A DNA stretch of 56,963 bases from a virus. The position numbers and the translations under genes are program-made. Location: the IMG/VR virus record IMGVR_UViG_3300030117_006614, positions 1-56,963 of that record. One strand, written 5' to 3'. Shown piece by piece: positions 1 through 56,963 of the stretch. The stretch's first letter is position 1. Every line of letters starts with the position of its first letter. The notes below the pieces were generated by a model. The model ran no database searches and was not told where the DNA came from. It worked only from the letters and a program-made list of their open reading frames with translations.

Positions 1-101
1 GCGCCCGTCAGCCAGTACCCGCACAAAGGCACTTCCAGGCGAAGCGTCGTCTTGGAATGGGCAAGTGCATTTATATTTGCCTTCACCCTTTTCCACCAAA
101 C
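1..101. repeat. Terminal overlap, left copy
   Basis: Positions 1-101 match 56863-56963 with one difference (A at 99, G at 56961). The primase-helicase reading frame runs through both copies in the same phase, so this is an overlap from closing a circular assembly rather than a true short terminal repeat. The unit genome is therefore about 56,862 bp and is circular or circularly permuted. The mismatch is three bases from the contig end, where a read-end error is likely. Confidence 0.93.
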
Positions 102-771
102 TGCCAAGAGAAACTTGGTCACCGGAGTCGAGCAAAACTTGGAAATCGGCATCGAGACTTTTCCCCCGTTGCTGGGGCTTACCCTTTGGCTTCTCTGTTT
201 TTTCAGAACCCTTGGAGAGAGTTTCAGCTTTTAGAACATCACCATCCAAGAAAACCTCACTCACGTATTCTTCTCCTTCAACTTGGGCCGGTAGCGCGTA
301 ATGACGAGATAAGTCTTTTGCAACACGGTCAACCCCATCATCATAACCCATAGCAATCAGACCGTTGGCCCATGCGTGCGGGTATTCCTGCGCAGTGAGC
401 GGGCGGTCAATAAAAAGGATAACCCTGAAACGGGGCTCGCTTGGGCGGTGGCTCCAAGTCGTGTAAACTACGTGTGCGATATTCTTAGCTTTTATCTTCG
501 CAGAAACAGCAGACGGGCCTTGAGTAGCATGGTCAAAGTCATAGACCAGGGCCGTAACAGTTTCTACGTTTTTGTTAGCGCGAGTCTGTCCAGGCTTGTA
601 CAGGGCAGGCGACCAGCAGGGCAAGTTACGTTTAGGGAACTTTGCAGAACGGGTAGCCGGTTTTGAGAAGAGGCTATGTACATTTGCCGAGGACTTGACA
701 CTAGTAGTCACAGGGGCTACACTAAAAAAGCCTTTGGGGAACAGAGAAATCTGCCAAGGGAACATCGTCAT
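1..771 (-). CDS. Primase-helicase, N-terminal 257 codons (continues at 56862)
   Basis: This open frame starts at ATG 771 and reads leftward off position 1. It joins in frame to the partial gene at 55414-56963, giving a protein of 739 residues. The start has GGAG at 778-781, six bases upstream. The N-terminal half looks like an archaeo-eukaryotic-type phage primase: a YDFD acidic pair near residues 77-80, then VVYTTWSH and PRFRVILF near 102-121, then a DLSRHYALP segment near 155-163. From about residue 233 a C-x-C...C...H set (CTCPF, then QCASERH) suggests a zinc-binding element leading into the helicase. The primase lays down primers for the family A polymerase; the helicase unwinds the fork. 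It is preceded by two small putative DNA-binding protein genes on the same strand. The family call is from motifs only. Confidence 0.85.
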   Translation of the reverse strand, partial: MTMFPWQISLFPKGFFSVAPVTTSVKSSANVHSLFSKPATRSAKFPKRNLPCWSPALYKPGQTRANKNVETVTALVYDFDHATQGPSAVSAKIKAKNIAHVVYTTWSHRPSEPRFRVILFIDRPLTAQEYPHAWANGLIAMGYDDGVDRVAKDLSRHYALPAQVEGEEYVSEVFLDGDVLKAETLSKGSEKTEKPKGKPQQRGKSLDADFQVLLDSGDQVSLGSLVEKGEGKYKCTCPFQDDASPGSAFVRVLADGR

Positions 772-832
772 TGTTATCTCCACACCTCCAACTAGGTTTT
801 TAGGTTTCCACGTTGGGGGTGTTGGTTTATGG

Positions 833-1243: not shown

Positions 1244-1624
1244 CTATAAATCTAAAGCGTCGTCCAGCATAAAGGGCTTGAACCAAAGTAAGGGGCGGCG
1301 GTCGCCTCTTCTTATCTGTTTTCTTTGGTAGCCAGCGGCACGTAGAATCTTGGCTGCAAGTATCTTCAACGAGTGTACTTCTAAAAGCATCTTCTCCCCA
1401 TAGGCAGAAACCAGCAACTCATCCAGAGTGAACCCACCCTGCTCAGAGCAAAGCTTTTTTGCGTGGGTGAGTATGAGGGCGGGAGTCTGGGAGGGGTTGT
1501 ACTCGTCAGGGGTTGGGAAAGCTAGTGCAGCCTTCAACGCGAAAATAATAGCTTCGCTGGGGGGCAGACCCATCTTGAGGGAGAGGTCTTGGGACAGTGC
1601 GGCAATCTGGTCACGGTGCGACAT
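1244..1624 (-). CDS. Putative winged-helix protein (126 aa)
   Basis: No family is recognised with certainty. The N-terminal third is helical. Residues from about 54 onward read as a winged helix: helix (ALILTHAKKLCSEQ), a short turn with GGFTLDELLVSAYG, a recognition-type helix (VHSLKILAAKILRAAGY) and a basic wing (RKQIRRGDRRPLLWFKP). Similar tails occur in phage replication proteins, so a role in origin binding or early control is plausible. AGGAG lies six bases before the ATG. It is the first gene after the long non-coding region 1625-2360, so it probably heads the replication transcript. Confidence 0.65.
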   Translation of the reverse strand: MSHRDQIAALSQDLSLKMGLPPSEAIIFALKAALAFPTPDEYNPSQTPALILTHAKKLCSEQGGFTLDELLVSAYGEKMLLEVHSLKILAAKILRAAGYQRKQIRRGDRRPLLWFKPFMLDDALDL

Positions 1625-2360: not shown

Positions 2361-2390
2361 AAAAAAAAGCCCCCGTCCGAAGACGAGGGC
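2361..2390 (-). terminator. Strong leftward intrinsic terminator with UUCG loop
   Basis: Read leftward, a nine-pair stem (2390-2382 with 2377-2369, one G-U pair) closes a C(UUCG)G tetraloop and is followed by eight T residues (2368-2361). This is a classical Rho-independent terminator. It lies 27 bp past the stop of the 87-residue gene and ends the accessory operon that starts near 7750, separating it from the replication block. Confidence 0.95.
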
Positions 2391-2416
2391 CAAAAGAAGT
2401 AGAAACTCTTTGTTAG

Positions 2417-2680
2417 TTATGTAACCGAATCTCCCAATTCATCGTGAATGAGGTCAATAATTTTGAAGTACAGTTTTCTTTGCCATTCGTCTGTTTGAAA
2501 ATCGTCTTCAATGTCACGAATGAGCAGCTTGTGGGCGTCACTATTTTTTTGCGCCCAAAAGTCGATTGTATGTACAGCACTCAAAAGACGGTCGAAAGCC
2601 AGAGTTGCATTACGCTGCGCGTCCGTCGCCTGTTTAAGTTCCTCTTTTGTTTTATCTACCCAAGGTAAAATATCTTCCAT
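2417..2680 (-). CDS. Small helical protein, unknown (87 aa)
   Basis: No family recognised. The protein is mostly helical and acidic with aromatic residues (DFWAQ, DEWQRKLYFKIIDLIHDEL). It is the last gene of the accessory operon. Its Shine-Dalgarno site (GGGGGTAA) is made by the final Gly-Gly-Asn codons of the gene before it (2682-3533), and only one base separates that stop from this ATG, so the two are translationally coupled. It may bind the 283-residue protein upstream; that is inference from coupling only. Confidence 0.75.
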   Translation of the reverse strand: MEDILPWVDKTKEELKQATDAQRNATLAFDRLLSAVHTIDFWAQKNSDAHKLLIRDIEDDFQTDEWQRKLYFKIIDLIHDELGDSVT

Positions 2681-2681
2681 T

Positions 2682-3533
2682 TTAGTTACCCCCGAAAGCT
2701 GTCATCATCGCTTCGGCTTCAACGTCCGCGACATGCTTTTGCAATTCTTGGAGAGACACTTGAAACATTTTTTCGTATCCAGAAATACGCTTGAGCAGTT
2801 TTCCGCATCTATCCATCTTTGTTTTCTTCGCGCGCTTACCAACGTCGGGTTGACTAAGCGCTTCCAGCATTTGACGCGTTTCGTTTTCAATGGATTCTGT
2901 AAGACCCATGATTACAGAATCACGCAACTTGTCGTCGTGTACCGTAGTTTGGAAATACACTTTATTCAGATTCCCTTCGCAGGAATTCTGAAAGCACTCT
3001 GCAACTTTCTCGAACTTTGCGACCGCACCTTGAGGAATCCAATAAACCCCACCACGCGGGCGAAGGGATATTCCGTGCATGTAGTCAATGATGTTTACCA
3101 AAGACTTTGAAACTGCAGAAGCTTGCACACGTTCACATTCAATTTGGAATCGGTGTGTGATTGCACCATCTTCTACAGGAGAAAAGTATTCTCCATCGGG
3201 ATTACGAAAAACTGGAAAGTCTGAATCCGCTGGCATGAGCGCGTCAAACTCTACTGTATGAGAAAGGGATTTTCCGTCTTCACCTTTTTCTTCCCGAACA
3301 ACGGCGTATCCAGGCTCACCCTTCAACGGGCGAATCAAACGGTCTTTTCTACCGCAAACACTTTTCAATGCTTGGTGTGTCGCAACCAACTTTGAATTCT
3401 GTTTTGGTGCGTACTGTTCTAAGCCCAACGCAGCCAAACTGTTTTTAAGTTTATCTGCATTGGTCTTTGAACCTGTACTGAAAAAGACATTATTGCCACG
3501 GCTAGAGGGTGCTTGTACTTGATTGATACTCAT
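2682..3533 (-). CDS. Accessory-operon protein, unknown function (283 aa)
   Basis: I do not recognise a fold with confidence. The N-terminus is Ser/Asn-rich (residues 1-25). A central region (about 65-180) is probably mixed alpha/beta with a GYAVVRE strand and an RPRGGVYWIPQGAV segment. The C-terminal third is strongly helical (ENETRQMLEALSQ, then MFQVSLQELQKHVADVEAE), suggesting a coiled coil. It ends Gly-Gly-Asn, whose codons supply the next Shine-Dalgarno. AAGGAAG lies six bases before its ATG. It follows the metallopeptidase-VWA gene across a 92-bp gap with a hairpin. I faintly recall proteins of this kind beside AAA+/VWA pairs in other phages, but cannot confirm it. Confidence 0.75.
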   Translation of the reverse strand: MSINQVQAPSSRGNNVFFSTGSKTNADKLKNSLAALGLEQYAPKQNSKLVATHQALKSVCGRKDRLIRPLKGEPGYAVVREEKGEDGKSLSHTVEFDALMPADSDFPVFRNPDGEYFSPVEDGAITHRFQIECERVQASAVSKSLVNIIDYMHGISLRPRGGVYWIPQGAVAKFEKVAECFQNSCEGNLNKVYFQTTVHDDKLRDSVIMGLTESIENETRQMLEALSQPDVGKRAKKTKMDRCGKLLKRISGYEKMFQVSLQELQKHVADVEAEAMMTAFGGN

Positions 3534-3563
3534 TGTTTTCTTCCTTTTTTTAATGAGTGTTTT

Positions 3564-3575
3564 ATTCTGCAGAAT
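3564..3575. repeat. 12-bp perfect palindrome ATTCTGCAGAAT
   Basis: A perfect palindrome in the 92-bp gap between the VWA gene and the 283-residue gene, 31 bases upstream of that ATG. It could be a dimeric protein-binding site or a small RNA stem. No promoter is evident here. Confidence 0.55.
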
Positions 3576-3586
3576 CGCAGAGTAAG

Positions 3587-3611
3587 GGTTCCCGATAAAA
3601 TACCGGGAACC
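3587..3611 (-). other. Intercistronic hairpin
   Basis: GGTTCCCG (3587-3594) pairs with CGGGAACC (3604-3611) around a nine-base A/T loop. It lies 14 bases past the VWA gene stop. There is no T-tract on either side, so it is more likely an mRNA stability or processing element, adjusting expression of the genes around it, than a terminator. Confidence 0.7.
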
Positions 3612-3625
3612 GATACACTATTATT

Positions 3626-4828
3626 CTACGTTGTAGGGATATGGATTACCTCGGACACCCAATCTGGATAACGAACGCAATCAGGTTTCCCAACGTGCCC
3701 AACGACAATTCGCATATGCGGAGGCTTTGTTTCTGGCCACGGAGTATAACCATCCGTGAGGATAACCAGATAATCTGGTCGGTCTTTTAACTCAGCAGCA
3801 GCTTTGATACCGACACGCATATCGGTTCCGCCGCCACCATTAAAGTCCATTTGAGAAACACGTTTAACCTTTTTGATACCCTGCATTCGGGCATCGCAAA
3901 CGAGAACCGTACCGCCAGAACCGCCGCCAGCTTTTAAGCAACCCTGAACTTCTGCTAAAATAGCTGGACCGTCTCGATACATACTGCCGGACGTATCTAC
4001 TAGAACAGCTATATTTGGAATCGGGTCGATGAAGCCAGGACGCAGTAGTTTTCTCGGGTTCCAATTCTTACGGTTAGCCCGTGAGTATGTTGGGACTGAT
4101 AAACCCTTGCGATATTTTTTGAAGTTTCGGACGCTGCCCCGAAGTTTCTTTTGCCAAGGTACTTTTGGTGGCGCCAAGGTTTCTTGAGCCCAAACACGCG
4201 CACTTCCGCCTACGGAACCGGGGTCTTTTCCGGCTTGTTCCGCAACCTTTTCTGCAGTCTTGCGAATGATGATTTCTTTTTCTACCTCATCCATACCGGG
4301 CCCACCTTCCGATGGTGCTGGCAATTCATAGTCCTGCGTTTTTCCAGAAGCACCGGAACCGCAATCACCCTGACCTACTTTTCCCTGACCAGGCGGAGGT
4401 TGCGCACCGGCAGAACCTTGTTCTTGGTTTTTTGTATAGTATTCTTCCCAAGGTTTTCCTGCGCGCCAACCAAACTGTTCGGGATAAATCGCCCAATCGG
4501 GTAGAAAATCTCGAAGTTTTGCGCAGTCATTTATTTCTGCGTCCTGGCAAATGTTTGCCATTTGTGGGTCTGCGTCAATTGCTTGGGCACGTTCATGGTG
4601 CCTACGCAAAACGTGCTGCGCTTCGTGGACGATATACCCAACCTTTTCTTTGAGCGTAGACTTATTCCAAAATTCCTTGTTTACATAAACCCTTCCGTAA
4701 GGGTCGATGGCAATCGTGGATACTTTGTCGCACTCATAAAAAGTTAGACGAGAAACAATATCTGCGTACCAACCGAATTCGAATAGTGCTCGGGCACGCG
4801 CAATAGGTATTTGAAGTTTCTTATACAT
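3626..4828 (-). CDS. Metallopeptidase-like plus VWA domain protein (400 aa)
   Basis: The N-terminal half matches the DUF2201-type putative metallopeptidase pattern, with VGYIVHEAQHVLRRHHER (HExxH zinc motif, about residues 64-81). A Gly/Pro/Gln-rich linker follows (about 130-185). The C-terminal third is a VWA-like domain with a complete metal-ion-dependent adhesion site: DTSGSM near 280, GGGGTD near 332 and LTDGYTPW near 358. Bacterial VWA proteins of this sort work with MoxR AAA+ ATPases, which remodel a client that the VWA protein recruits. A MoxR-like ATPase is encoded upstream in the same operon (6539-7675). The start has GGAGGTGA built from the last codons of the preceding 60-residue gene, with TAATG overlap. 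Client and role are unknown. Confidence 0.88.
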   Translation of the reverse strand: MYKKLQIPIARARALFEFGWYADIVSRLTFYECDKVSTIAIDPYGRVYVNKEFWNKSTLKEKVGYIVHEAQHVLRRHHERAQAIDADPQMANICQDAEINDCAKLRDFLPDWAIYPEQFGWRAGKPWEEYYTKNQEQGSAGAQPPPGQGKVGQGDCGSGASGKTQDYELPAPSEGGPGMDEVEKEIIIRKTAEKVAEQAGKDPGSVGGSARVWAQETLAPPKVPWQKKLRGSVRNFKKYRKGLSVPTYSRANRKNWNPRKLLRPGFIDPIPNIAVLVDTSGSMYRDGPAILAEVQGCLKAGGGSGGTVLVCDARMQGIKKVKRVSQMDFNGGGGTDMRVGIKAAAELKDRPDYLVILTDGYTPWPETKPPHMRIVVGHVGKPDCVRYPDWVSEVIHIPTT

Positions 4829-5010
4829 TACTCACCTCCTTTCGCTTTCGCGATTGATTTGAACCATTCTTCGCAGCAATAGCATTTGAGGCATCTACAT
4901 ATTTTTCCTGTAGCTATGCGCGTTTTAACGCCACCTCGCTCTGAATCTGATGTACCGATTTTGTCGGTGTCGTATTTGTATTTAGTTGACTCGCCACTCC
5001 ACTTTCCCAT
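4828..5010 (-). CDS. Small Cys-rich protein (60 aa)
   Basis: A CRCLKCYCCEEW segment near residues 38-49 could bind zinc; the first 35 residues are hydrophilic. It lies between the 349-residue unknown and the metallopeptidase-VWA gene and overlaps both by one base through TAATG junctions. Its own Shine-Dalgarno is encoded by the previous gene's Gly-Gly-Glu end, and its own Gly-Gly-Glu end does the same for the VWA gene. This tight coupling supports it being real. Confidence 0.75.
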   Translation of the reverse strand: MGKWSGESTKYKYDTDKIGTSDSERGGVKTRIATGKICRCLKCYCCEEWFKSIAKAKGGE

Positions 5011-6059
5011 TACTCACCTCCGTTGGTGTATAAAGCTGTGTCAGGAATGACGAAAATGTTTCCGAGATAGCCGCATGTTCTTTTTTCTACAGTATAAAAA
5101 TACAAATCTGTCCAGGACTGCGAACGGTGATTTTCTGGCCGCAATTTAGAAACGTCTGGAGACATTACGATATAGTCGCCCTTGTTTTCTGTAGCGTTGA
5201 AAACGGGCCAAGGTAGCAGCATATCAGGAGTGCGGGCTCCATACTTTTCTGCCCTGTCTTTTGCGTTTACAAATTCTAGCCAAGCCGATTCGCTGTAAAC
5301 TTTATCCAGTCCACGACTCTTTACGTTTTTAAACCATCGGAGGTTATTCGAATCGGCCATTGAATAGGTCATGTACCAACATTCAGCTTTGCTCGCATAG
5401 TCTTGCACGATTTTTCTGGCCCGCAGTTTAATGCGACTATGGATTGAAGGAAGCTTGGGTTCAATATAGTGTGAATAACGTTTACGCCTACTCGTTAGAT
5501 TGTGCTCCGCCTGATGGAAAGAAAACACGCTGCGAAAGTGGTCATACACAGCCACTAAAATCTTGGGCAGCTTTTGTCGTAATTCTTTTATTTCCCAAGA
5601 ACTATGAAGTACGTTTGTACAATCTGGCGTCACCAATTGATTCCAAGCATCCACAATCTCCAAACAACGTAGGGAACTGTCGTCGCCAAAAGTCTGCATC
5701 ATTCTAAGACCATCTAAATCATCATGCTCTAAAGCCGTGAGCGATAAGTCTTTTTCTAAACGAAGCGTATGCAATTGATTGCAGCAGCGAACAGAAACGT
5801 TTCCATCAAAATTTAATATATCCCACATTCTACGTTCCCATGCTCCGGTAGTAGAACCGCGAACGCCTTTTGGACGTGGCTTCAATTGTCGAGAAACAAC
5901 AAAACCCTTCGAAAGTGGACCGTCTTCGGTGCGACCAGCTTTACCAGGGAAAATAGTTATCTCTTTTTCGAAGTCATATTTGGTTTCGATAAGATGCTTC
6001 CAATCATCCCAAGGGACTGCGGAGCGAGAAAATGGAGTATTAAAAATTCTTTTAGTCAT
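5010..6059 (-). CDS. Accessory-operon protein, unknown function (349 aa)
   Basis: No domain recognised. The protein is soluble and rich in aromatic and basic residues. Residues about 60-110 are mixed strand and helix (NFDGNVSVRCCNQLHTLRLEK), about 150-240 are helical and basic, and the C-terminus has beta-like segments (TDLYFYTVEKRTCGYLGNIFVIPD). There is no signal peptide or membrane segment. AAGGA lies nine bases before the ATG. It ends Tyr-Thr-Asn-Gly-Gly-Glu, where the last codons form the next gene's ribosome-binding site. Its place between the AAA+ ATPase and its VWA partner makes it a candidate client, adaptor or effector of that pair; this is inference from position. Confidence 0.78.
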   Translation of the reverse strand: MTKRIFNTPFSRSAVPWDDWKHLIETKYDFEKEITIFPGKAGRTEDGPLSKGFVVSRQLKPRPKGVRGSTTGAWERRMWDILNFDGNVSVRCCNQLHTLRLEKDLSLTALEHDDLDGLRMMQTFGDDSSLRCLEIVDAWNQLVTPDCTNVLHSSWEIKELRQKLPKILVAVYDHFRSVFSFHQAEHNLTSRRKRYSHYIEPKLPSIHSRIKLRARKIVQDYASKAECWYMTYSMADSNNLRWFKNVKSRGLDKVYSESAWLEFVNAKDRAEKYGARTPDMLLPWPVFNATENKGDYIVMSPDVSKLRPENHRSQSWTDLYFYTVEKRTCGYLGNIFVIPDTALYTNGGE

Positions 6060-6120
6060 TTTGTTATGTCCTTATACAAACAAGTGTAGAAAGAGGTTTA
6101 AGTAGAGAGCCAGGAATGCT

Positions 6121-6149
6121 AAACCCGCCGCCGTTTCCAAGGCAGCGGG
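6121..6149 (-). terminator. Leftward terminator-like or attenuator hairpin
   Basis: Read leftward, nine pairs (6149-6141 with 6132-6124, one G-U) enclose an eight-base loop and are followed only by TTTAG. It lies 13 bases past the stop of the 60-residue gene at 6163. The weak T-tract suggests partial termination or an mRNA 3' end stabiliser that lowers expression of the genes from 6059 onward relative to the ATPase. Confidence 0.6.
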
Positions 6150-6162
6150 GAAAAGGTTATTT

Positions 6163-6345
6163 TTATTGGGCATTGTCTGCCCCGTTTACTTTGAAGTCTT
6201 CCCAAACATCATGGGCAGCCTCAAAAATCTCATTCAATTCAGAAGTCACCATATCCATTCCAGCGCAAACTGAATCAGCATCGAAGTTTTCTTGAGTGGC
6301 TACAATCTCACAAAGCAATCTTGCAAACTGTACTTTCAATGGCAT
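6163..6345 (-). CDS. Small acidic protein, unknown (60 aa)
   Basis: Helical, acidic, no known motif (ELNEIFEAAHDVWEDF near residues 36-51). The start overlaps the previous stop in TAATG, and the Shine-Dalgarno GGAGGTGA comes from the previous gene's Gly-Gly-Glu codons. It is followed by the hairpin at 6121-6149. It probably belongs with the AAA+ ATPase as a small partner; no function can be read from the sequence. Confidence 0.7.
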   Translation of the reverse strand: MPLKVQFARLLCEIVATQENFDADSVCAGMDMVTSELNEIFEAAHDVWEDFKVNGADNAQ

Positions 6346-6542
6346 TATTCACCTCCTTTGTCATGCTCAGCTTCCATTTTTTCCCAATCAATATCCTGTG
6401 GGCAATCAGCCCAATTCGGAACAACATCGTAGACTTTTTCTCCATCTTCGATGCGTGCCAATTCTTCTGCCGAAACTACAACGGTTGTTGGTTCGGTTTT
6501 TGTCCAGGTTTCTCCATCATTAAGCACATAAATAAGCATCAT
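6345..6542 (-). CDS. Small acidic protein, unknown (65 aa)
   Basis: Begins MMLIYVLNDGETWTK and contains SAEELARIEDGEKVYDV, a pattern seen in many small phage proteins with no assigned role. It overlaps the AAA+ ATPase stop by four bases (ATGA), and its ribosome-binding site lies in that gene's last codons. It ends Gly-Gly-Glu, supplying the next Shine-Dalgarno. Confidence 0.75.
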   Translation of the reverse strand: MMLIYVLNDGETWTKTEPTTVVVSAEELARIEDGEKVYDVVPNWADCPQDIDWEKMEAEHDKGGE

Positions 6543-7675
6543 TCACCTCCGAAGATGCCCGTTTGACGGACAAAGGAAGCAAATTCCATAAGTGCGGGGC
6601 TTTGCATGTTCGCGCCTTTTGGACGACTTTTTGCGAGAGCATGAACACCCATGATTGCAAGGTCACCACGGTTTTGCTGTTTGCATACTTGCAGGAATTC
6701 CCATCCTTTATCCCAACGGGCAGGAGTGTTATTTTGTGCAATCGCAGAAGCAACCATGCTAACCAAAGCAAAAAGCTTATCGTCTTCTTCGGGCAAAGGG
6801 CGCGCGTGTGGATTCTGAATAAAGTCTTCAGGGTCACCCAAATCTAAATCTCTTTCCCACGTCAAAAACTCCAAACCAGGAGCACCGACTGTACCTTGCG
6901 CAATATCCAACATTAAATGCTGTTGATTAGAAGCGATTGCTGCCGCACGTAGAATCCAAAAGTGTTCCCATGAACGGTCAGTGTTTGCGGGCTTCCAAAT
7001 ATCTTCACCTCGGGCAATCAAGTCTTCAGGGGAGATTCTAAGGTGGTGAGAAAAGCGGGAGAGGAAAGTGCCCACCATCATCATCGATGCTTTGATACCA
7101 GACTCCCAACCATTAGGAAGCATTTTTGGTTTCATAGAATCCCAAGAGCCCGTTGTCATTTGTTGCGCAATCCAGCTTTTATCGGGGCTGTATTGAATAA
7201 CCAAAGAACGGTTAGATATTGGGTGCGATATTGTACCTCCAGTTGTAGCTATTTCTGGTGGATTCATGTTTGCGATAAATGCGGCGCCCTCAAGATTCAA
7301 GTCAGCAACCGAACCGTCTTGAAACATACCGTGACAAGCGGCTTGAGTTTTAGAATCTGCATCGGCCAATTCATCCACAAAGATAACAAAATTACTTGGG
7401 CCATTATCGGAAACAGTTTTTGCCCAATCCGGCGGAAGCATACGCATTACACCGTTTTGAAAATCTGGTGCGGGGTATCCATTAAAATCGGATGCTTCGT
7501 ACCTTGGTGCGGGCAGAGTAACTAAAGCTTTTCCAAGTGCTTCTGCTACGGGTTCTACACAACCTTTGTTTTTTCCTACTCCAGCTTGTCCTACCAATAA
7601 AACAGTAGGGGCTTTTGCTGTTGCGAATTGCGCTTGCAATCCGAGTGCCGTTAGGTCGATTAAGTTTTTAGACAT
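6539..7675 (-). CDS. MoxR-like AAA+ ATPase (378 aa)
   Basis: An AAA+ ATPase of the MoxR/dynein-related type. After a short N-terminus it shows a Walker A-like loop VGQAGVGKNKG (about residues 27-37), Walker B FVIFVDELAD near 98, sensor-1-type IANMNPPEIATTGG near 134 and an arginine-finger candidate ISNRSLV near 152. The residue after the Walker A lysine is Asn, not Ser or Thr, which is unusual. MoxR ATPases form hexamers and act as chaperones with VWA partners; the partner is encoded at 3626-4828. The start at 7675 is chosen because AAGGA lies eight bases upstream and the leader is A-rich; an extension to 7750 would translate the 5' hairpin. It ends Gly-Gly-Glu. Confidence 0.9.
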   Translation of the reverse strand: MSKNLIDLTALGLQAQFATAKAPTVLLVGQAGVGKNKGCVEPVAEALGKALVTLPAPRYEASDFNGYPAPDFQNGVMRMLPPDWAKTVSDNGPSNFVIFVDELADADSKTQAACHGMFQDGSVADLNLEGAAFIANMNPPEIATTGGTISHPISNRSLVIQYSPDKSWIAQQMTTGSWDSMKPKMLPNGWESGIKASMMMVGTFLSRFSHHLRISPEDLIARGEDIWKPANTDRSWEHFWILRAAAIASNQQHLMLDIAQGTVGAPGLEFLTWERDLDLGDPEDFIQNPHARPLPEEDDKLFALVSMVASAIAQNNTPARWDKGWEFLQVCKQQNRGDLAIMGVHALAKSRPKGANMQSPALMEFASFVRQTGIFGGE

Positions 7676-7722
7676 TTTTTCTATCCTTTTTTTTGTTTGT
7701 TTTTTTTGCCGAAAGTGGCGCC

Positions 7723-7748
7723 GCCGTTGGACGCAATCCTCCAACGGC
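7723..7748 (-). other. Hairpin at predicted 5' end of the accessory operon mRNA
   Basis: GCCGTTGGA and TCCAACGGC pair perfectly over nine bases with an eight-base loop. Taking the promoter at 7756-7784, transcription would start near 7749, so this stem sits at the very 5' end of the mRNA and is followed by an A-rich leader (7684-7708). 5'-terminal stems are known to protect bacterial and phage mRNAs from decay. The start site is predicted, not shown. Confidence 0.7.
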
Positions 7749-7755
7749 AAGCCTT

Positions 7756-7784
7756 ATGTTAACACGTTGATACCAATCCTTCAA
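7756..7784 (-). promoter_or_regulatory. Predicted promoter of the AAA+/VWA operon
   Basis: Read leftward, TTGAAG (7784-7779) and TAACAT (7761-7756) are 17 bp apart; each box matches the sigma-70 consensus at four of six bases. It is 81 bp upstream of the ATPase start. The repeats at 7794-7815 and 7867-7888 lie upstream of the -35 box, where an activator would bind. Moderate support only. Confidence 0.5.
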
Positions 7785-7793
7785 GGTATGCTT

Positions 7794-7815
7794 GATATGC
7801 CAGGTTAAACCTACC
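7794..7815. promoter_or_regulatory. Operator-like repeat, proximal copy
   Basis: A 22-bp element, gatatgccaggtt-A-aacctacc, containing the palindrome AGGTT-N-AACCT. The same element lies at 7867-7888 with only the central base changed. Two identical palindromes 73 bp apart (about seven helical turns) upstream of a promoter suggest a dimeric regulator that can bind both. The regulator is not identified. Confidence 0.7.
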
Positions 7816-7866
7816 ATATCGCAGAATGCCCATATTTAGGGGTCGGCGCGTTTGACGTTACCCGAC

Positions 7867-7888
7867 GATATGCCAGGTTCAACCTACC
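7867..7888. promoter_or_regulatory. Operator-like repeat, distal copy
   Basis: Second copy of the element at 7794-7815; 21 of 22 bases are the same, the difference being the palindrome centre (C for A). I saw no third copy in the other intergenic regions. Confidence 0.7.
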
Positions 7889-8220
7889 TTTTCAGCCGGT
7901 GCCCTATTCCAGCCTATAAAAAAGCAATTGACCATAGGACTACGTAGAAACTGGAGTTCTTTTTTTAAGAAAAGGAAAGCACGCAAAAAAAGTAGAGGAT
8001 TTTAGTTTTCTACTGCAGGAAATCTTTTCTTCAGGAATCAGGAAAACTTAGAAATGCATAACACGCGCAAAGGAAAACAGAAATCCAGCGATTCGGGAGA
8101 GATTACCGCTGCAGTATTGGCGCGGACAAGTCCCAGCTACATGATAGACCCTAGCAGACAACCGCTGCAGACAACCGCTGCAAAGAATCTCGCAGAGAGA
8201 AATGCAGAAACGCAAACGAA
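7889..8220. other. Non-coding part of the control region
   Basis: No gene supported on either strand. It contains an A/T-rich stretch (7920-8050) with runs of A and T, the tandem 13-bp repeat at 8154-8182 and a related accgctgcag at 8105-8114. It separates the terminator of the 57-residue gene from the operators of the AAA+ operon. An origin is possible here but not shown. Confidence 0.4.
8154..8182. repeat. Tandem 13-bp direct repeat
   Basis: The unit gcagacaaccgct occurs twice back to back (8154-8166, 8167-8179) and begins a third time (8180-8182). A partial copy, accgctgcag, lies at 8105-8114. Short tandem repeats beside A/T-rich DNA are typical of iterons or regulator sites. Confidence 0.75.
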
Positions 8221-28460: not shown

Positions 28461-30059
28461 ATGGCAGAACCGTACAAAACCATAGGCGAAACCCGCAGAG
28501 AACGGCGGGCAGAAGAAGCAAAAAAACGTATGCCTGAGTACGCTGACGACCCCTACGCTGTTGCCTTCCCCGACATTTCTGGGCAGGAAGGTTCGACTTG
28601 GGAAGAGATTTCAGATTATCGAAAAGCGTTGAGACAAGCCCGCATGGGTGCTGTTGCTGGCTTTGTTCCCAGTAGACTGCAAGGCGCCGCTCAAGGTGCT
28701 GCAGGGGTTTTTCCTACAGGAGTTTCTTGGCAAGAACAGGGCGCGGCTCGACAAGCACTTATTGATGCTCTTGCTGCTTACGAGCAATCTGAAAATGAAT
28801 TAGAATCCCAAGGTTTGCGCCACAATTACCAAACCCGTACAGCAGAGGCGAATGAGTTGGCTACCCTGGGACGCCTGCTTCAACAAGGTATTTCATCCAC
28901 AGCTTCCGCTTCTGCTCGCAACGCTGAAATTGCCTTAAACAAAGCCTTGGGGTTTATTCAAATCAACGACAAAAGGATTGCCAACAGGGGTATGCACCAC
29001 GGCGAAATCATTAAAGGTATTGACGACGAAATGGTCAATGAAATTGGACGCTTTGTGCAGCCTGTTGCGAACGATCCAAAGGGGAGGCGCGAGCATGAGA
29101 TAGATGCAGCCAAGGCCGTACCACTCTTAAAGGCTATTGAAGACGCACTAACTGGTAACCCCAAAGTAGATGCAGCTTTTATCGAAAGAGTAGAGGCACA
29201 ACATCAACTCAACCTTGGGCAGTATTTTGGGTGGCAAGTTGACGCCAACAATCAACTTGTCCGAACAGAAGGCGCAGAGGGAAGTCTTGAAGAAGCGGCT
29301 GAAGGCATACGGGCTAGTATGGAAGGCAACTTCATGGCGGCTCAACGAGCGCGGGCTGCGATGCGGCAAGAGGACGCTAAATACGAAGAGCAAATGATGA
29401 AAGCGTTTGACGGCCTAACCAAAGCCGGTGCAGGTCTTCCAGGTTTCTTGGACCCCGTGTTTGCACGATTTACAGAATTGATGGGCCGCAAAGCCATTAA
29501 ACCCAATTCGCAAACAGCGAAAGGCCCCGGCGGGACGCTGACTGTCACAGGACAACCGGGACAAGCTGTTGCACCAGAAGGCAGCACTACAGAACAAGTC
29601 CAAACACAGACTACGCAAACAGATCGCGAACCTTCTCGGGATATGCTTAAAGAGCAATTCCAGGCACAGATTGACCACATAGATAATCCCAATCCGCCTG
29701 GAAAGGTCCTCCAAGCTAAGAATGACATTATTGATTCTGCTTTGTTCCAGGCTTTCAAACAAAACAACGAATTTGAAACAGACGATGTGGCGTATCGAGC
29801 GTTTGTGGAAGAGTCTCGCGATCGAGACAGAGAAGCCAAAGCAAAAGATACAGAAAAACTGCAGCAGCGGCGAATGGAACGCGAGGGTGGAAAAGGCAAT
29901 CTCAGAACCCGCATGGCGGAAGGTTTTGCCATGCTGCGTCCGCGATACAGAAACCGACGCTTGGCGGCGGAAACTACGGCACAAACTCCCACTCAAAACG
30001 ATAGCCCCACTGAAGATCGGGCTAAAAACCAAAAACCCGAAGACGAGGCCGGTAAGTAA
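28461..30059 (+). CDS. Possible internal virion protein (532 aa)
   Basis: Mostly helical: charged N-terminus, Ala/Gln-rich core helices (residues 70-270), then a low-complexity Pro/Thr/Gln segment (about 355-400, QVQTQTTQTDREPS) and a charged C-terminal region. There is no enzymatic motif. Its place and composition suit the core protein ejected with DNA (compare T7 gp15). It overlaps the large protein's ATG by one base. Confidence 0.6.
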   Translation: MAEPYKTIGETRRERRAEEAKKRMPEYADDPYAVAFPDISGQEGSTWEEISDYRKALRQARMGAVAGFVPSRLQGAAQGAAGVFPTGVSWQEQGAARQALIDALAAYEQSENELESQGLRHNYQTRTAEANELATLGRLLQQGISSTASASARNAEIALNKALGFIQINDKRIANRGMHHGEIIKGIDDEMVNEIGRFVQPVANDPKGRREHEIDAAKAVPLLKAIEDALTGNPKVDAAFIERVEAQHQLNLGQYFGWQVDANNQLVRTEGAEGSLEEAAEGIRASMEGNFMAAQRARAAMRQEDAKYEEQMMKAFDGLTKAGAGLPGFLDPVFARFTELMGRKAIKPNSQTAKGPGGTLTVTGQPGQAVAPEGSTTEQVQTQTTQTDREPSRDMLKEQFQAQIDHIDNPNPPGKVLQAKNDIIDSALFQAFKQNNEFETDDVAYRAFVEESRDRDREAKAKDTEKLQQRRMEREGGKGNLRTRMAEGFAMLRPRYRNRRLAAETTAQTPTQNDSPTEDRAKNQKPEDEAGK

Positions 30060-33000
30060 TGCCTATTGGGGAAGACGGAGCATGGCGCCCATATACGCAG
30101 GAGGAATTGGATAACTTTGAAGCACCAAAGGCCCCAAAAACTCCCCGGCGTACTGCACCTGCTTTAGCCCCCGAACCTATTAAGGCTCCAGAACCCATTA
30201 AGGCTCCCGAACCCGTCCAACCTTCACCAAAGTTGGACGTTCCAGATTATGTTTCAGGAGAAGACCCGACTGACGCTGAGTTGAATGAAATCGGTTTTGA
30301 CATTCAGGTAGATCCCGTAAAAGGGACCATCCCACAATACGACAAAGAAAAACTACGTGCCCTTCGGTTTAAAAAATCTGTAGAAACACCCATTTCTCCC
30401 GCAGGTGCGATGGCCTATACTGCAGCAGCGGGCACCACAGGTTTTGTTGCCGAAGACTTAGACAAGTATCGAAAAGCCCAGCAGAACATCGCGGAGGCTT
30501 TTGAAGAGTCGGATCGCAAGACCGATAGAATCTACCAAAAAGCCCGCGAAAAGGGTTTCTCTTCTCTTTCGGAAGATGAACTTACTTGGATAGAAACGAA
30601 GTGGTCACCCGAAGAGATTTTTGGTCTTCACGCCATGACAGCAGACCACGGTTATGAAGTCTCTGAAAGGATGGCGAAAGACCTAGCCGCTGGTATCACT
30701 GGCAAGCTTCCGCTTTTTATGCCTACGCCTGGTTTGGGGTTGGGCCTTACCGCCGCTAGAATGTTTTTATCTCGGGAAAGCGATCAGCCACCTGAAGAGC
30801 GCCCTGAGTTTACTCCCGAGCAAATTAACGACATTCTGGGCAAGACGAACAGCGTTTTAGCCCAACGAGCCCAAGCACGTCGGATTGTAGAAGAGAGAGA
30901 AGCGCAAAACCAGAAAAAACAATCCGCAGATGGTTGGAATCGTGCAGTCAAAGAAAAACCCGAGTTTCTAAAAAGTCCCATTAGGGATATGTTTGTCGAA
31001 GACTATATAGATGGCCGAGGCCACATAGATATTGAAAAAGCGAAAGAAGAATTAACGCGCCTGTATCAGCACGATATTCTCGAAGAAGAGGGTAAAACTT
31101 TCTTTGCAAGAGATTTGACCGTTGGAGCGAAGAATGCCGCTTACCAAGTAGCACACGAAAAAGCTAAAGAAGATATTGCCGTAGTCCTCAATGCTGGTCG
31201 AGGCAGTATTGCGTGGACTGACCCTGACCCCAAAAGAACCACTGAAGCTGTAATGGCTACGCACGAAAAGTGGCAAGACTTCTGGGAAACAGAAGAAACT
31301 ATTAAGATTGACCAGCTTCGGGAAGCGTATAAAAACGATCCGCTCAGTCTTTTCACCATAGTTCCAGCATTCATTGGAACCCCCCAAAAAGCAGCCGAAT
31401 ACGTTGTACGAAAAGGGCTTGCGGATAACCCTTTTGTGTTGCCCCTGCTCACAGCAACTACGCCCACAATGGCGATTGATGTGACACCCACTCACCGACA
31501 ATTCGTTGCCCGAACGATCATGGATTCTATCAATGGTTGGATGCTGCCCACTTGGATTGGGGCAACGCTACAAACCTATAGCGACTCAATAAAGGCCGAA
31601 GGCGTACCGGAAGACGGTATCGGAGAAGCGGTCTTCAAGGCACTGAATCGCGATATTATCGCAAAACAATCGGGCTCTGAAATTGTTGCTGACGTTAGTA
31701 CCGCTTTGGCTGGTGGAAACGAAGACGAAGCTGGTTTCGGGCTGATGAAGCTTATTATCGGCAACAACCCAGATGTGGCTGCAGCCACCGAAACTGCAGA
31801 GTCTTTGTGGGAAATTACGAAAGGCGGATACAACACTGCGGCTAACATACTTGCAACCTGGGCAGGAACAACTGGCGACGACGTAAAGACTAAACGGATG
31901 ATCCAGAATCTCCGCAACGGAAACATGCTTTTCCAGGTACAAGCAGAGATCGCAAACGACTTTGCAGATGCGATGGACATGGAAGGGTGGCAGCGCAACA
32001 CTTTGATCCGCGCTGCGATGTTCTCTGGCTTGACGGCTGAGTTTGCACCCGGTTTAGGCGCTGATCCCCTAACAGGCACAATAGCTACAATGGGCCAAGG
32101 CATAGGTGTATATCGAGCAGCCAAAGCTTCCATGAATAGTCAGGCAAAAGTCCTACGAAAACTAGAACGTAGTGACGTGAGTGCTTCCGAAAAAATTCAA
32201 ATAATGGAGTCCAAAGATTCCCCACTAGACCCAGAAGTCACCCGTATGGTGAAAGAAAACCTCCACATAGAATCGGGATACCGGGGGTATATTTCAGAGT
32301 ACATTAGCAGGACTGAGTGGAAACTGGAACAGGCTGCAGAAAAAGCGCGTATTGCTGCTCGCGCTGCCGGTATAGAGGAAAGCCCTGCAGTTTTACAGGG
32401 CAGTAAGTTTACAGACGAGGCCTACAAAGAAGAATATATTGAGAAAACAATATCCCAAAGTTTTCAAGAGGCCAGCGTAACGGCTGAACGTGCTGGTAGG
32501 GCAGACGTCACCAAAGTCTTTAAGATTGAGAATATGGAAGACACCATCAACCAGTTTGAAGCTGCTGGTGAAGTCTTTCCCCCAGGTTTTCGGGGATGGG
32601 AAACTTGGAAACAAGAACACTATCTTAGGAATCTCAATCGCGAAGCCTTAGAGAAGCCTATACGAGAACGCCTCGAAGCCACGATCCGAGAAGACATAGC
32701 AGCAATCGGATCGCGAATCGGGGAAACGACTGTTGATGGTGATGTTTACAAGCTAACTAACTCTGATGGCAGTTTCGGTCTATACATGCGGATAGACAAC
32801 AACCAGTGGGTACGAGTAGACGAAGCTGACATTCCGGCCTTACGAGAAACAGTTTTAATCGGAGAAACGACGCGCACTCCACTGCGTCCTATCGAACGGA
32901 AGTCTGCAATAACGGGTGCGTGGGAGCAACGGGCCCGACAAGCTGATGAATACCCGTGGTCAGATGCGGAACGTAAAAAGGATGAAGCGCTGGCGCGTGT

Positions 33001-36000
33001 TGCTGAGTTGGAGCGTAAACAAAAAAAGTGGCGTGGAAACCTACAACAACCTGGAATGCTTGACGAACTAAAAGCAATCCAGACGGAGTTGGCACAAGCC
33101 AAAGTAAACGCCAAAAACCTCCAGGCAGAAGAAACCGCGCTGCGTAAGACTTTCCCTGATCACACGGCGCCCACTGCACCGCTGTCAGATGATCTTGCGC
33201 AAAACATAGCTAATGGCGCTGCACTTAAAAACGATGAAATGGTTGGTGCAACCGCACACTCTGTCCGAAAGCCTGTATTCGCTATGGGCAAAGACTCTCC
33301 AGAGGCTGCCCAATACCATACAGCACGGCTGGAAGAAGCCCGTGCAGCGGCTAACCGTGCAGAAGTCGAAAAATTTAATGCTCAAAAGACTCTTGAAGAG
33401 TGGGAAAGGAGCGAAGGTGCTTTCTTAACTGAGGTACAAGTTTCGCGTGAGGTTCTGAAAAAAGCCAAGAAAAAGCTTCGAAAATTAGAAGCTAAAGCTG
33501 CAAAACAGTACGAACAAGACAAACCTTTTCTTGAAGACAAGGCGCGCCGTAAGGACAATCTAGACAAAGCAGAAGCAGAAATTGTACGCAGAAAAGACGC
33601 TTACGATGCCGACCCTACGCCCGCTAATCACAAAGCAATCAAAGATGCCAAGAAGAAAGCAAAAGAAGCTAAGAAACTCTATGATGCTGATGAATTAGAA
33701 ACCCTAGAAAGGGCAGTCCGCGCCAACGAGATTTTTACCAAATTGTCCCGCATTGGCGCTGAAGTCCAAGCGCACAAGGCAAGGCTATATGGCGTACAGG
33801 AAAGCATTCAAGACCACCTCGTATCTGCAGAGCGTGCCCCAGGGTTGCTTGACGAAGCTTGGGGCGGGAAGAAGATTGAAAAAGAACTTACAGAAATTCG
33901 GGCAGAATTAGAGCGGAAAGCTAAAGCGGCCTCGAAGAAAGCCAAAGAAGCAGAAAAAGAACACCAGACTGCAGCTAAACTTGCGCGAGGGGTTCCCGAA
34001 AGAATTGGGGACATGCAGGTAGCTGTCAAAGAAAAACTAAAAGAGTTGTCGTTCCAAGATGACCTAAACAAACTCAATAAAGTTTTAGGCAAACTGGCTG
34101 ATGACATTGAAATAGGTACGAGAGCGTTACGGGGGATTCCAGATGCTACCGCTCACTTTAATAAAATCCTACAAACTACAACCCGTTTAATTGAGGGACA
34201 ACCTATAGACGAGGTGGTGGCGGGTACGGTAGCTAGTCGCGAAGTAAACGCCGTTAAGATGGTCGAAGAGTTGGAAAAACTTTTTAAGCCTCGCGTTGTT
34301 CGAAAAACAGCCGAGCGGGGTGGTGAGAGTGGGAGAGTCCTTGAGCGAATCTTAGAAGCCGCAAACAACGGTAACGAGAAGATGGAGTTGACCCTTAATC
34401 AATCCATGCACTTACAGCGGTTGTTGCCATTACTCACAGATACCTACAAACAATCCCAAAAAAATGCACGATCTATGAATGTCGTGGAGGCGCTACGGCT
34501 TGCACGCACAGACCCAGATTTGCAGATAACCTCTTTCCGGTCTTTTATTGAAAGAAAACTGCAGCCTACTCTTCGAGATTTTACGGACCCAGTGCGAGCA
34601 GAGATTGGGGATACTACAGAGGCAGTGCTGCAGGTCGTTAAGAGTGTTGACCACCTCCAAGATCACCTCAAAGATGAGTTGTTCGCAATCGCAAAGTACA
34701 TTCAAAAGATGACCGAAGGAATGGGCTCTTCGGCACGGGCACGCGAAACACAGAAAATGTTGCTTAAATACTTAGAGGGCACAGAAGGCTTACCAGTATT
34801 TAGGACACGGACGACCTACTTGAACATGGGCGAATTGTCTATTTTCGACCGGGCCATCCAACAAGTCCTGAATGATCCCCGAGCCCTTGGAATGAAGCGC
34901 CTGAAGAAAATGGCGAAAGCAGAGCAGGCAAGGCTCAAAAAAGAGATCAAAGCCCAGATACGGCGCGGAGAAGTCCCGAAAGGAACCAAGCCCCCATCTA
35001 TCCGTGAGTTGCTTGAACAACGTTGGGGCAAGAGTGTCCACGAAATCGGGAAAGTGGGAACCTCTCCCGTCGTCCTCGCACTTTCTCGGGCTTTTGTCGC
35101 AGACGGGCCGTGGAAAAAGATTGATGCTCAGATGGAGTTTAACCTATACCAAGCCACGCTCGATGCGATGAAAAAGAATAAAAACAACCTGGGCGCGTTG
35201 GTAGAAGACCTCAAAGGTGTCGCAACAAAGAACGGCCTTGAGTTGACGGCAAACACTACTGAAGCTTTGCAGCGTGTGGCCAACGCCTTGGGTCATGGTG
35301 CAATTGAATACCGATTCAATCGTGCGTTTACTCGCGCTATTAGCGGCAAGATTACCCCAGAGCAGGCTTCTGATATTTGGCGTCTTTTCGGGCACAGATC
35401 CGAAGAGATTATTAACTACGAAAACGCTTTGGAAGGCTTGAACCGTATCGGCATTCCCTTCACCGCACGCACAGTAAAAACAGCGGGGGCAGCTTCTGAG
35501 AAGCAATTGAGCCTGATTGCTACGGGTACGAGTGAAGCGGGCGACGTCTTTTTCACTCCCCAGGTTATCGCTCAACGACTCGAAGCTACCATGCCGAATG
35601 TCATTAAGAGCACGGCGGAACGGTTTGCACAAGCTCGGGGCGATTTTGGGGGCTTCGCTGCCCAAAGTTTCTACGATTACAATTCTCTGTGGAAAACTTC
35701 TGTAGTTACAGGGATTTTCCACCCACAAGGAAGATACTGGTACAACAACTTTGTCGGTGACTTGTCTCAGGTGTGGTTTGAAGAGGGCCTATCCCAAGCC
35801 CTTAAAATGAACGCAAACCTGATCCACACCATCAGCCTTAATACATTGGCTGGAACATACCGCGTTGTAGAAGGCACGGCGCAAGCTGCTGCAAGGGCGA
35901 GGATTCCTGGGACGACTTTCAGTTTCTTTCCAGAAGCAATCGGTGAAGGTTTAGCCCGCATACGAAAACACCATGTTGCCAAGTATGGTGAAGACGGTGC

Positions 36001-55413: not shown

Positions 55414-56963
55414 TTAGTTGTCAGAGGTGAGTGGTACTACCTTCCCTTGAGGCTTTCTTTTTCCAACAGGGAGCCCCCGATAAACTTCTACTTTTCGTCC
55501 ACCCATGTACGCAGACACGATGGTCGTGTCCGCAAAATCTTTCACTACCATGCGGAACATCATTTCTGGCTTTATGTCCCGACGCCCGGTACGCTCGCAC
55601 CATTCGCGGTACGTCCCATAGAGTGTTTCACAGGGAACCACCTGACCATCCGAAACATCGGAAAGTCTTGGGTACATCGGACCCGGTGGATAATTAGTAA
55701 GAACCGAAGACGTACCCTTGGATGCAATCTCATGGCAAAAGGCATCCAGACTTTCTGCACTGATACCCTGCAAACCTTTCTTAGCTTCAGTAAATATGGG
55801 CCGAGAGATTAGGCCCCAATCCACTTGCATATTGTGTAGATAGTGGGCAAACCCCTGAACCTCTTCGTAAAAGCTAACAGAGAACTTTGAGGTTTTCGGG
55901 TCGAAACATTCTCGCAGCATTTTCCTGTACTCAAAAGAAGCTTTATTCGGAGAGAGGACTGTGAAGCGTCGGTCGTCCTTTTCGATGAGCACCGGGTCAG
56001 GCTTGTTACTGGTCAGCCACCAAGACATTCTATTTATTATTGTAGTCCGAGCAGCATAGGGAGCAGAGCAGTGAACACGGTCATCCGTGATTGCCGCCTT
56101 TACTTCGGCCATCGTGTTTGCCGCACCACGGTTTACTGCAACCTCATCAGCGAGGACGAGTAGTTTTGTAACGTAGTGAGAGTTGAAAGAATCTTTGAGG
56201 GCTTTGTTACTTACAACTGCTGAGTTTCCTTCACCGATAATCGTGGCGAGGATTCTACCGAAAAGACTTTTTCCAATACCCTGCTGGGGAGAGAGCACAA
56301 GGACGGCAACCATCGCACGACGTTCAGGGTGTTGGATTAGGGCAGCGCTCCAATGTAGCAGCCACTTCATCACTTCCCTATCTCCAGCACACAACAAAGA
56401 AATTATCTCCTTCATCCTGGGCGAAGGGCCGGCGCTAACTTCAAGGGTTGGAAAAGCATAAAGATTGAGCATTGGCACATCGTTTAGCTTTACCACTTGG
56501 TCGCGCGTGGACTGGCAATCAAACCCATAAACCTGTCTTGAGAGGATATGGTCTATCAGTGCCATCGCATGAGGTTTTCCGCACTTACCAGTCATCAATC
56601 CAATAAGGTGGTCAGTCAGCGCCTCTTTTCTAATGGGCGAGGAAATCTGCCAAGCACCGTCAGAATGCCGATAGAAAACTCCTTGAGGGGCATTGTAAGC
56701 TATTCTGTCTTCGACATACTTGAGTAGACGTTCTGGAACCTCTTGGAGCCATTCAGCGCGATCGTCAGCGGTTCTTGAGGTTTTGCTTAGTTTCTTTTTC
56801 TTGGCAAGCCACCACTGTTTTCCTTCGTGCGTGTGCCTTTCGCTTGCACACTGAATGAAAGCGCGCCCGTCAGCCAGTACCCGCACAAAGGCACTTCCAG
56901 GCGAAGCGTCGTCTTGGAATGGGCAAGTGCATTTATATTTGCCTTCACCCTTTTCCACCAGAC
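55414..56963 (-). CDS. Primase-helicase, C-terminal part (5' end at window start)
   Basis: This is the rest of the 739-residue protein that begins at 771 and runs through the circle. Residues of the full protein: zinc-like Cys/His set near 235-267, Walker A LSPQQGIGKS (about 447-456), Walker B KLLVLADEV (about 490-498) followed by a D5/SF3-type helicase core with SNKPDPVLIEKDDRRFTVL. This core belongs to poxvirus D5-like helicases joined to phage primases. The real start is not at 56958; that GTG is an internal valine. Positions 56863-56963 duplicate 1-101. Confidence 0.88.
   Translation of the reverse strand, partial: LVEKGEGKYKCTCPFQDDASPGSAFVRVLADGRAFIQCASERHTHEGKQWWLAKKKKLSKTSRTADDRAEWLQEVPERLLKYVEDRIAYNAPQGVFYRHSDGAWQISSPIRKEALTDHLIGLMTGKCGKPHAMALIDHILSRQVYGFDCQSTRDQVVKLNDVPMLNLYAFPTLEVSAGPSPRMKEIISLLCAGDREVMKWLLHWSAALIQHPERRAMVAVLVLSPQQGIGKSLFGRILATIIGEGNSAVVSNKALKDSFNSHYVTKLLVLADEVAVNRGAANTMAEVKAAITDDRVHCSAPYAARTTIINRMSWWLTSNKPDPVLIEKDDRRFTVLSPNKASFEYRKMLRECFDPKTSKFSVSFYEEVQGFAHYLHNMQVDWGLISRPIFTEAKKGLQGISAESLDAFCHEIASKGTSSVLTNYPPGPMYPRLSDVSDGQVVPCETLYGTYREWCERTGRRDIKPEMMFRMVVKDFADTTIVSAYMGGRKVEVYRGLPVGKRKPQGKVVPLTSDN
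56863..56963. repeat. Terminal overlap, right copy
   Basis: Repeats 1-101 with one mismatch at 56961. Remove one copy to close the genome. Confidence 0.93.

Follow-up and report, generated by a model that had tools for sequence, protein, structure and literature searches.

A phage operon joining a MoxR-type ATPase and a metallopeptidase-VWA protein to DUF6744 and a previously undescribed protein family

RESULTS

IMG/VR virus record IMGVR_UViG_3300030117_006614 holds the DNA of a 57-kb phage, and we analyzed its positions 1 to 56,963; this whole stretch is called the window below. The list of open reading frames (ORFs) gives eight on the minus strand between positions 7675 and 2417, encoding, from the 5′ side, a MoxR-type AAA+ ATPase, two small proteins, a 349-residue protein, a further small protein, a zincin metallopeptidase fused to a von Willebrand factor A (VWA) domain, a DUF6744 protein and an 87-residue protein. 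An earlier note on this DNA had described a phage operon of eight same-strand genes of these sizes; this stands, with the start of the ATPase gene corrected, and overall its observations were largely right and its interpretation partly right. The ATPase/VWA pair is already known, and the function proposed for it in tailed phages rests on analogy. Undescribed, as far as our tools show, are the conserved triad of this pair with DUF6744, the family of the 349-residue protein (here called C-H-H-C after its invariant residues) and the replication-side context. Comparisons were made with about 110 related viral contigs, whose loci carry labels such as L002.

The ATPase gene (6539 to 7675, minus strand) was assigned a start at the ATG at 7675, which follows an A/G-rich leader and corresponds to the family start, giving a protein of 378 residues; the TTG at 7750 would make it over-long. 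Residues 15 to 365, spanning the AAA+ core and lid, match phrog_1297, the phage branch of the MoxR AAA+ proteins (E = 1.3e-24), in line with the MoxR-like ATPase of the earlier note, while the Pfam AAA_5 match stays below its cut-off (15.3 bits versus a gathering threshold of 22; E = 0.021). Among solved structures, the closest relatives of the profile are the AAA modules of midasin. The Walker B (VIFVDE), sensor 1 (NMNPPE) and arginine finger (SNR) motifs all align with the family. In place of the consensus GxxGxGK[ST], the Walker A motif reads GQAGVGKN (7568 to 7591, minus strand), the sole exception among the aligned relatives, since all other members have Ser or Thr where this protein has Asn. 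The ATPase gene lies off the contig in L002, hence no comparison of the GKN is available there.

The second member of the pair is a 400-residue protein (3626 to 4828, minus strand) that matches DUF2201_N (E = 5.5e-23; 82.4 bits versus a cut-off of 23.2), DUF2201 (E = 1.5e-13; 51.4 versus 26.4 bits) and phrog_1314. It combines, as had been noticed before, an HExxH zinc site (H68, E69, and H72; 4613 to 4627, minus strand) with a complete metal ion-dependent adhesion site (MIDAS), made of the DxSxS motif (D278, S280, and S282; 3983 to 3997, minus strand), T335 (3824 to 3826) and D359 (3752 to 3754). The two histidines and the glutamate of HExxH are invariant in 77/77 very divergent aligned relatives and the MIDAS residues in 79/79, the conservation of T335 being partly selected because this residue lies inside the search pattern used to find the relatives. 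The name of phrog_1314, “HNH endonuclease,” propagates through the annotation of deposited phages and is unfit for the zincin-VWA domains.

Relatives of this protein are found in 213 deposited phage records, and a VWA-based search of IMG/VR gave 80 loci. The ATPase and VWA genes are adjacent or close in Pseudomonas N4-like, Vibrio, Bacillus AR9 and Thermus phiFa phages and in most of the 80 loci. In N4 the pair is gp24/gp25 and in AR9 g028/g029; it is a core gene pair of N4-like viruses (PMC7650795, PMC2784036). The metallopeptidase-fused MoxR-vWA pair of jumbo phages was reported by Iyer et al. 2021, who suggested that it acts in virion assembly with processing (PMC7824862). The earlier statement that such an operon has no described function therefore needs amending on these two counts, and it stands insofar as our literature search found no test of the pair's role in any tailed phage. 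A keyword search of the CRISPRi-ART main text likewise found nothing on the fitness effects of N4 gp24/gp25.

One of the six proteins that had gone unrecognized, the 283-residue product of the gene at 2682 to 3533 (minus strand), belongs to DUF6744 (PF20529; 46 bits versus a gathering threshold of 27; E = 4.4e-12; profile positions 153 to 301). It aligns with this family over its whole length, with a leave-one-out E value of 1e-55. DUF6744 lies near the pair in about 16 independent contigs among the 80 VWA-found loci; leave-one-out E values there lie between about 1e-30 and 1e-91, and the best non-member reaches about 1. A reciprocal scan starting from DUF6744 returned 22 contigs outside the first set: 16 of the 22 have a VWA gene, a 17th has an ATPase gene 7 kb off, and in the other five DUF6744 lies at most 1.7 kb from the contig start. 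Of the 40 non-duplicate DUF6744 loci, 33 have a VWA gene at a distance of up to 5.5 kb, and for 22 this distance is at most 1 kb. The ATPase/VWA pair thus accompanies DUF6744 in essentially every viral contig with enough flank. DUF6744, a bpMoxR-type ATPase and a VWA protein are also encoded consecutively on plasmids (Alicyclobacillus pDSM3922.1, Pseudanabaena pPg_04 and ABRG53b) and close together in Moorella phage MTATph1, the VWA proteins of these plasmids and of MTATph1 being of a different class that lacks DUF2201.

In the VWA tree, all loci with DUF6744 or the C-H-H-C protein fall within one half (Shimodaira-Hasegawa-like approximate likelihood ratio test support, 98), and the records tested from the other half, among them N4-like, jumbo and phiFa phages, gave no DUF6744. 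The predicted fold of DUF6744 is confident (mean predicted local distance difference test score [pLDDT] from AlphaFold, 86.9). It has no match in the PDB at E ≤ 0.001, and in BFVD it retrieves its own family alone, including an archaeal-virus protein. A single scan of GTDB bacterial and archaeal genomes gave no relative, and we found no papers discussing DUF6744. Relationships of DUF6744 to DUF3150 of IncC plasmids and to the family of the 349-residue protein were each considered and rejected, as neither gave any signal.

The 349-residue protein (5010 to 6059, minus strand) has no Pfam or PHROG family, no convincing PDB match and no significant relative among deposited phages. With an iterated profile, relatives were found between the ATPase and VWA genes in L002, L014/L015, L011, L017 and L019 (in L002 and L014 the contig does not reach the ATPase gene) and beside the pair in L016, L023, L032 and L053; because the loci were chosen via their VWA genes, members of the family could be found only near VWA. 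In leave-one-out tests, members score E values of 1e-4 to 4e-14 and the best non-member about 1. Apart from M1, the only invariant positions in the 10-sequence alignment are C92, H97, H112 and C132 (5664 to 5786, minus strand), a pattern suggesting a metal-binding core of about 55 residues in a fast-evolving protein. Between the window and L002 the protein is 71% identical, versus 89% for the VWA protein and 95% for DUF6744 (89 to 95% for the neighbors in general). The ratio of nonsynonymous to synonymous substitution rates (dN/dS) against L002 is about 0.14, with dS near saturation. It represents a lineage-specific and previously undescribed family, usually encoded between the ATPase and VWA genes. 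The L023 record (IMGVR_UViG_2913561130_000002) has four C-H-H-C copies, one of them about 10 kb from the others; none was found in the remaining 47 records of that search.

Both ends of the window (1 to 783 and 55414 to 56963) fall within a single primase gene of L002, where they overlap by about 100 nucleotides, which is what a short terminal repeat in an assembled genome would produce. This overlap makes it probable that the record is a complete, circularly closing genome. An exact terminal repeat of 60 to 139 nucleotides was not found between the ends, so a mismatch within the overlap is likely. In the closed circle, the operon directly precedes the genes for primase, helicase, exonuclease, a Sak4-like protein and DNA polymerase, all of which share its strand, and the structural genes lie on the opposite one. 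The operon had been described as lying away from the replication genes, which is wrong, since it heads the replication cluster. A host-defense target had been derived from that distance, and the argument fails because the operon is directly upstream of the replication genes; the same position recurs across relatives. In a census of 208 long neighbor ORFs at 52 loci, with the 25 most frequent PHROG families listed for each half of the VWA tree, the commonest of those listed were helicase, primase, polymerase, exonuclease, methyltransferase and ParB-like. No structural family is among the 25 listed for either half, a statement that leaves room for rare ones.

DISCUSSION

The earlier idea of a chaperone-like MoxR/VWA operon in a phage is supported by these results. 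We propose that the operon may encode an ATP-driven protein-remodeling machine with a built-in protease, whose specificity would be set by its partners and whose client would act in the replication or takeover phase of infection; we regard the chances of this proposal being correct as about even. The ATPase would form a ring of the MoxR/midasin type and pull on a client, the VWA domain would dock this client on the ring through its MIDAS, and the tethered zincin domain would cut it. The ring, the docking and the cutting are modeled on the established biology of MoxR-VWA systems, namely midasin, RavA-ViaA and p618/p892 of Acidianus two-tailed virus (ATV) (PMC7159879, PMC4124505). DUF6744 would be an obligate accessory in part of the branch, most likely an adaptor that chooses or presents the client. 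Since the 349-residue protein co-travels with the pair and outpaces its neighbors in evolution, it is plausibly an adaptor or a client. We favor a lineage-specific, fast-evolving accessory that would most likely be an adaptor and possibly the client itself. It had previously been taken for a client or effector, and its company and pace of evolution fit this idea, yet it forms a recognizable family and nothing separates a client from an adaptor. The client would most likely be a replication- or takeover-phase protein of the phage or the host, and not a capsid or tail protein, because the operon opens the replication cluster and the pairs of relatives adjoin replication genes. Starting from the observed family memberships, invariant catalytic and MIDAS residues, gene linkage and neighborhood, we thus infer complex formation, proteolysis, an adaptor role and, only from the operon's position, the class of client.

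Several points weigh against this proposal. ATP hydrolysis by the ATPase of the window is uncertain because the Ser/Thr of its Walker A motif is replaced by Asn, and cleavage, ATPase activity and the complex itself are predictions from the proteins' sequences. The AlphaFold model of the 349-residue protein is too poor to search with (pLDDT 40.7), which leaves the putative metal site as a call from conserved residues. In the archaeal virus HVTV-1, about 15 kb separate DUF6744 from the ATPase/VWA pair, and because several large records in the window's own half of the VWA tree go without DUF6744, the ATPase/VWA core does not require it. Finally, the neighborhood reveals a timing or a module, not a client.

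A different function, in which the pair serves as chaperone and cochaperone for head or tail parts and the peptidase trims structural proteins, is what Iyer et al. 2021 suggested for jumbo phages, drawing an analogy to ATV p618/p892 (PMC7824862). The p618 protein of ATV belongs to the virion and interacts with p892 as well as with other virion proteins (PMC4124505), and a MoxR-like ATPase has been reported to be co-packaged in a Staphylococcus jumbo phage (PMC10638138). For the operon described here, we find such a contribution to virion assembly or maturation unlikely. The operon stands at the start of the replication cluster, and the structural genes occupy the other strand. The most frequent neighbor families listed for the 52 loci include no structural one, and the DUF6744/ATPase/VWA triad also occurs on plasmids, which have no virions, though with a VWA protein of a different class.

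We give a similarly low probability to a machine for host takeover or counter-defense, extracting and cutting host defense, replication or transcription proteins with targets set by the fast-evolving partners. The divergence of the 349-residue protein (71% identity, versus 89 to 95% for its neighbors) and the expanded lineage-specific families that adjoin the pair would fit such a role, whereas PADLOC gave no match for the five window proteins scanned and the core has been conserved over long times, which suggests that its target stays the same.

Less probable still is a purely chaperone-like machine, remodeling a phage replication complex in the manner of midasin or RavA-ViaA, in which the zincin domain would be a structural or binding element. 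Peptidase-free MoxR-VWA systems do carry out such remodeling (PMC7159879), and the plasmid and Moorella versions with DUF6744 have VWA proteins lacking DUF2201, but the invariance of HExxH in all 77 relatives would be puzzling if the motif served neither catalysis nor zinc binding. A CobST-like cobaltochelatase pair, which would work with host CobN to raise the cobalamin supply, a role suggested for the AAA+/VWA pairs of haloviruses and cyanophages (PMC8651126), is very improbable here, given a VWA protein made of DUF2201 and a zincin domain with only DUF2201 above cut-off and no CobT family match, a constant partner that is DUF6744, and the absence of cobalamin genes from the frequent neighbors listed.

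The systems most similar to the operon of the window are N4 gp24/gp25 and AR9 g028/g029, which likewise encode the two families in this order, close to replication genes (PMC7650795, PMC2784036). The tested records of N4-like, jumbo and related phages differ from the window in having neither DUF6744 nor the C-H-H-C protein, and the aberrant Walker A motif belongs to the window ATPase. The jumbo-phage pair of Iyer et al. 2021 likewise joins a MoxR ATPase to a vWA protein with an N-terminal metallopeptidase (PMC7824862), whereas the pair described here, rather than being a predicted virion-assembly system, lies in the replication region of a 57-kb phage with two further conserved partners. The MoxR-vWA ternary systems of Kaur et al. 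2020 also add a conserved third component, which is VMAP, a β-propeller or FtsH in their case and DUF6744 or the C-H-H-C protein, borne on mobile elements, in ours (PMC7159879). The third components of the window have no Pfam match to VMAP, β-propeller or FtsH domains.

RavA-ViaA, midasin and ATV p618/p892 share with the window a MoxR-type ATPase and a VWA/MIDAS partner that remodel a complex; to our knowledge, they have no zincin domain and no DUF6744 partner. A recombination block of IncC plasmids likewise encodes an ATPase and a VWA protein together with a third protein, but this third protein is DUF3150, with no detectable relation to the DUF6744 of the window. On the IncC plasmid pAR060302 (L130, 1681 to 9674), the layout is analogous, with the ATPase gene followed further on by ssb-bet-exo-DUF3150-VWA.

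Tandem, diverged paralogues of about 260 residues with repeated W-P motifs stand directly after the ATPase/VWA pair in L027 (2970 to 8670) and L055 (3910 to 9537), and AR9 g030/g031 form another lineage-specific expanded family beside the pair. Such recurring families fit exchangeable adaptors or clients. More tentatively than the proposal of a remodeling machine with a built-in protease, we suggest that this machine might be specific to mobile elements, an “unfold-and-clip” device tied to replication. It would combine a constant MoxR/zincin-VWA core with a dedicated DUF6744 subunit (in tailed phages, an archaeal virus and plasmids) and with interchangeable, rapidly evolving specificity families (C-H-H-C, the WP-motif paralogues and AR9 g030/g031) that would direct it to its clients. 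Large phage groups have MoxR/VWA pairs among their core genes, and these pairs have been labeled as virion chaperones, as parts of cobaltochelatases or, for the VWA protein, as HNH endonucleases. A near-constant third subunit, a new associated family, a replication context and invariant catalytic residues now define a complex for coexpression, pulldown and mutation, and DUF6744 gains a context.

ADDITIONAL FEATURES OF THE LOCUS

The operon ends at an intrinsic terminator (2368 to 2391, minus strand) with a hairpin of 10 pairs followed by T8, in agreement with the earlier note. A promoter had been placed at 7756 to 7784; it agrees with the consensus at 8 of 12 bases and is absent from the output of our promoter scan, which found 6 promoter-like sites versus 11.5 in shuffled sequences, i.e., fewer than expected by chance, and we rejected it. 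A better candidate for a regulatory site is an operator-like 27-nucleotide palindromic repeat upstream of the operon; its copies (GATATGCCAGGTTNAACCTACC...) lie 73 nucleotides apart, copy 1 (GATATGCCAGGTTAAACCTACCATATC) at 7794 to 7820 and copy 2 at 7867 to 7893. The 22-nucleotide core occurs window-wide only at these two sites (the second at 7867), with 0 occurrences expected.

Two hairpins lie inside the operon on the minus strand. The one at the VWA/DUF6744 junction (3569 to 3629) is very stable (−31 kcal/mol; z score, −6.4), lacks a U run and is kept in L002 (z score, −7.5) with a compensatory double change from A-U to G-C. The one 5′ of the gene for the 349-residue protein (6124 to 6149; z score, −2.5) has no T run and is weaker but present in L002. 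Unrelated hairpins occupy the equivalent junctions in L015, and Rfam gave no match within the window. Because of these strong internal hairpins, the single transcript claimed earlier is an assumption, and graded expression of the operon genes is possible.

A near-perfect Shine-Dalgarno sequence, GGAGGTGA, stands at four junctions of the operon, and several internal genes start just 3′ of it. Strong Shine-Dalgarno sequences precede all three small ORFs: a 65-residue ORF (6345 to 6542, minus strand) for which Pfam, PHROG and the L002 comparison gave no relative, a 60-residue ORF (6163 to 6345, minus strand) with a sub-threshold Pfam match only, and a 60-residue Cys-rich ORF (4828 to 5010, minus strand). 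All three are missing from L002, which has a 206-residue gene upstream instead, so the eight genes do not recur together as a unit. The 87-residue ORF (2417 to 2680, minus strand) has a counterpart in L002 alone (63% identical).

Among the structural genes, a 2,509-residue ORF (window 30059 to 37588) has no PHROG match. Between the operon and the primase gene lies a conserved gene for a 126-residue protein (1244 to 1624, minus strand; cluster c5, 7 loci) that belongs to no family and is 96% identical in L002, with a dN/dS of 0.03.

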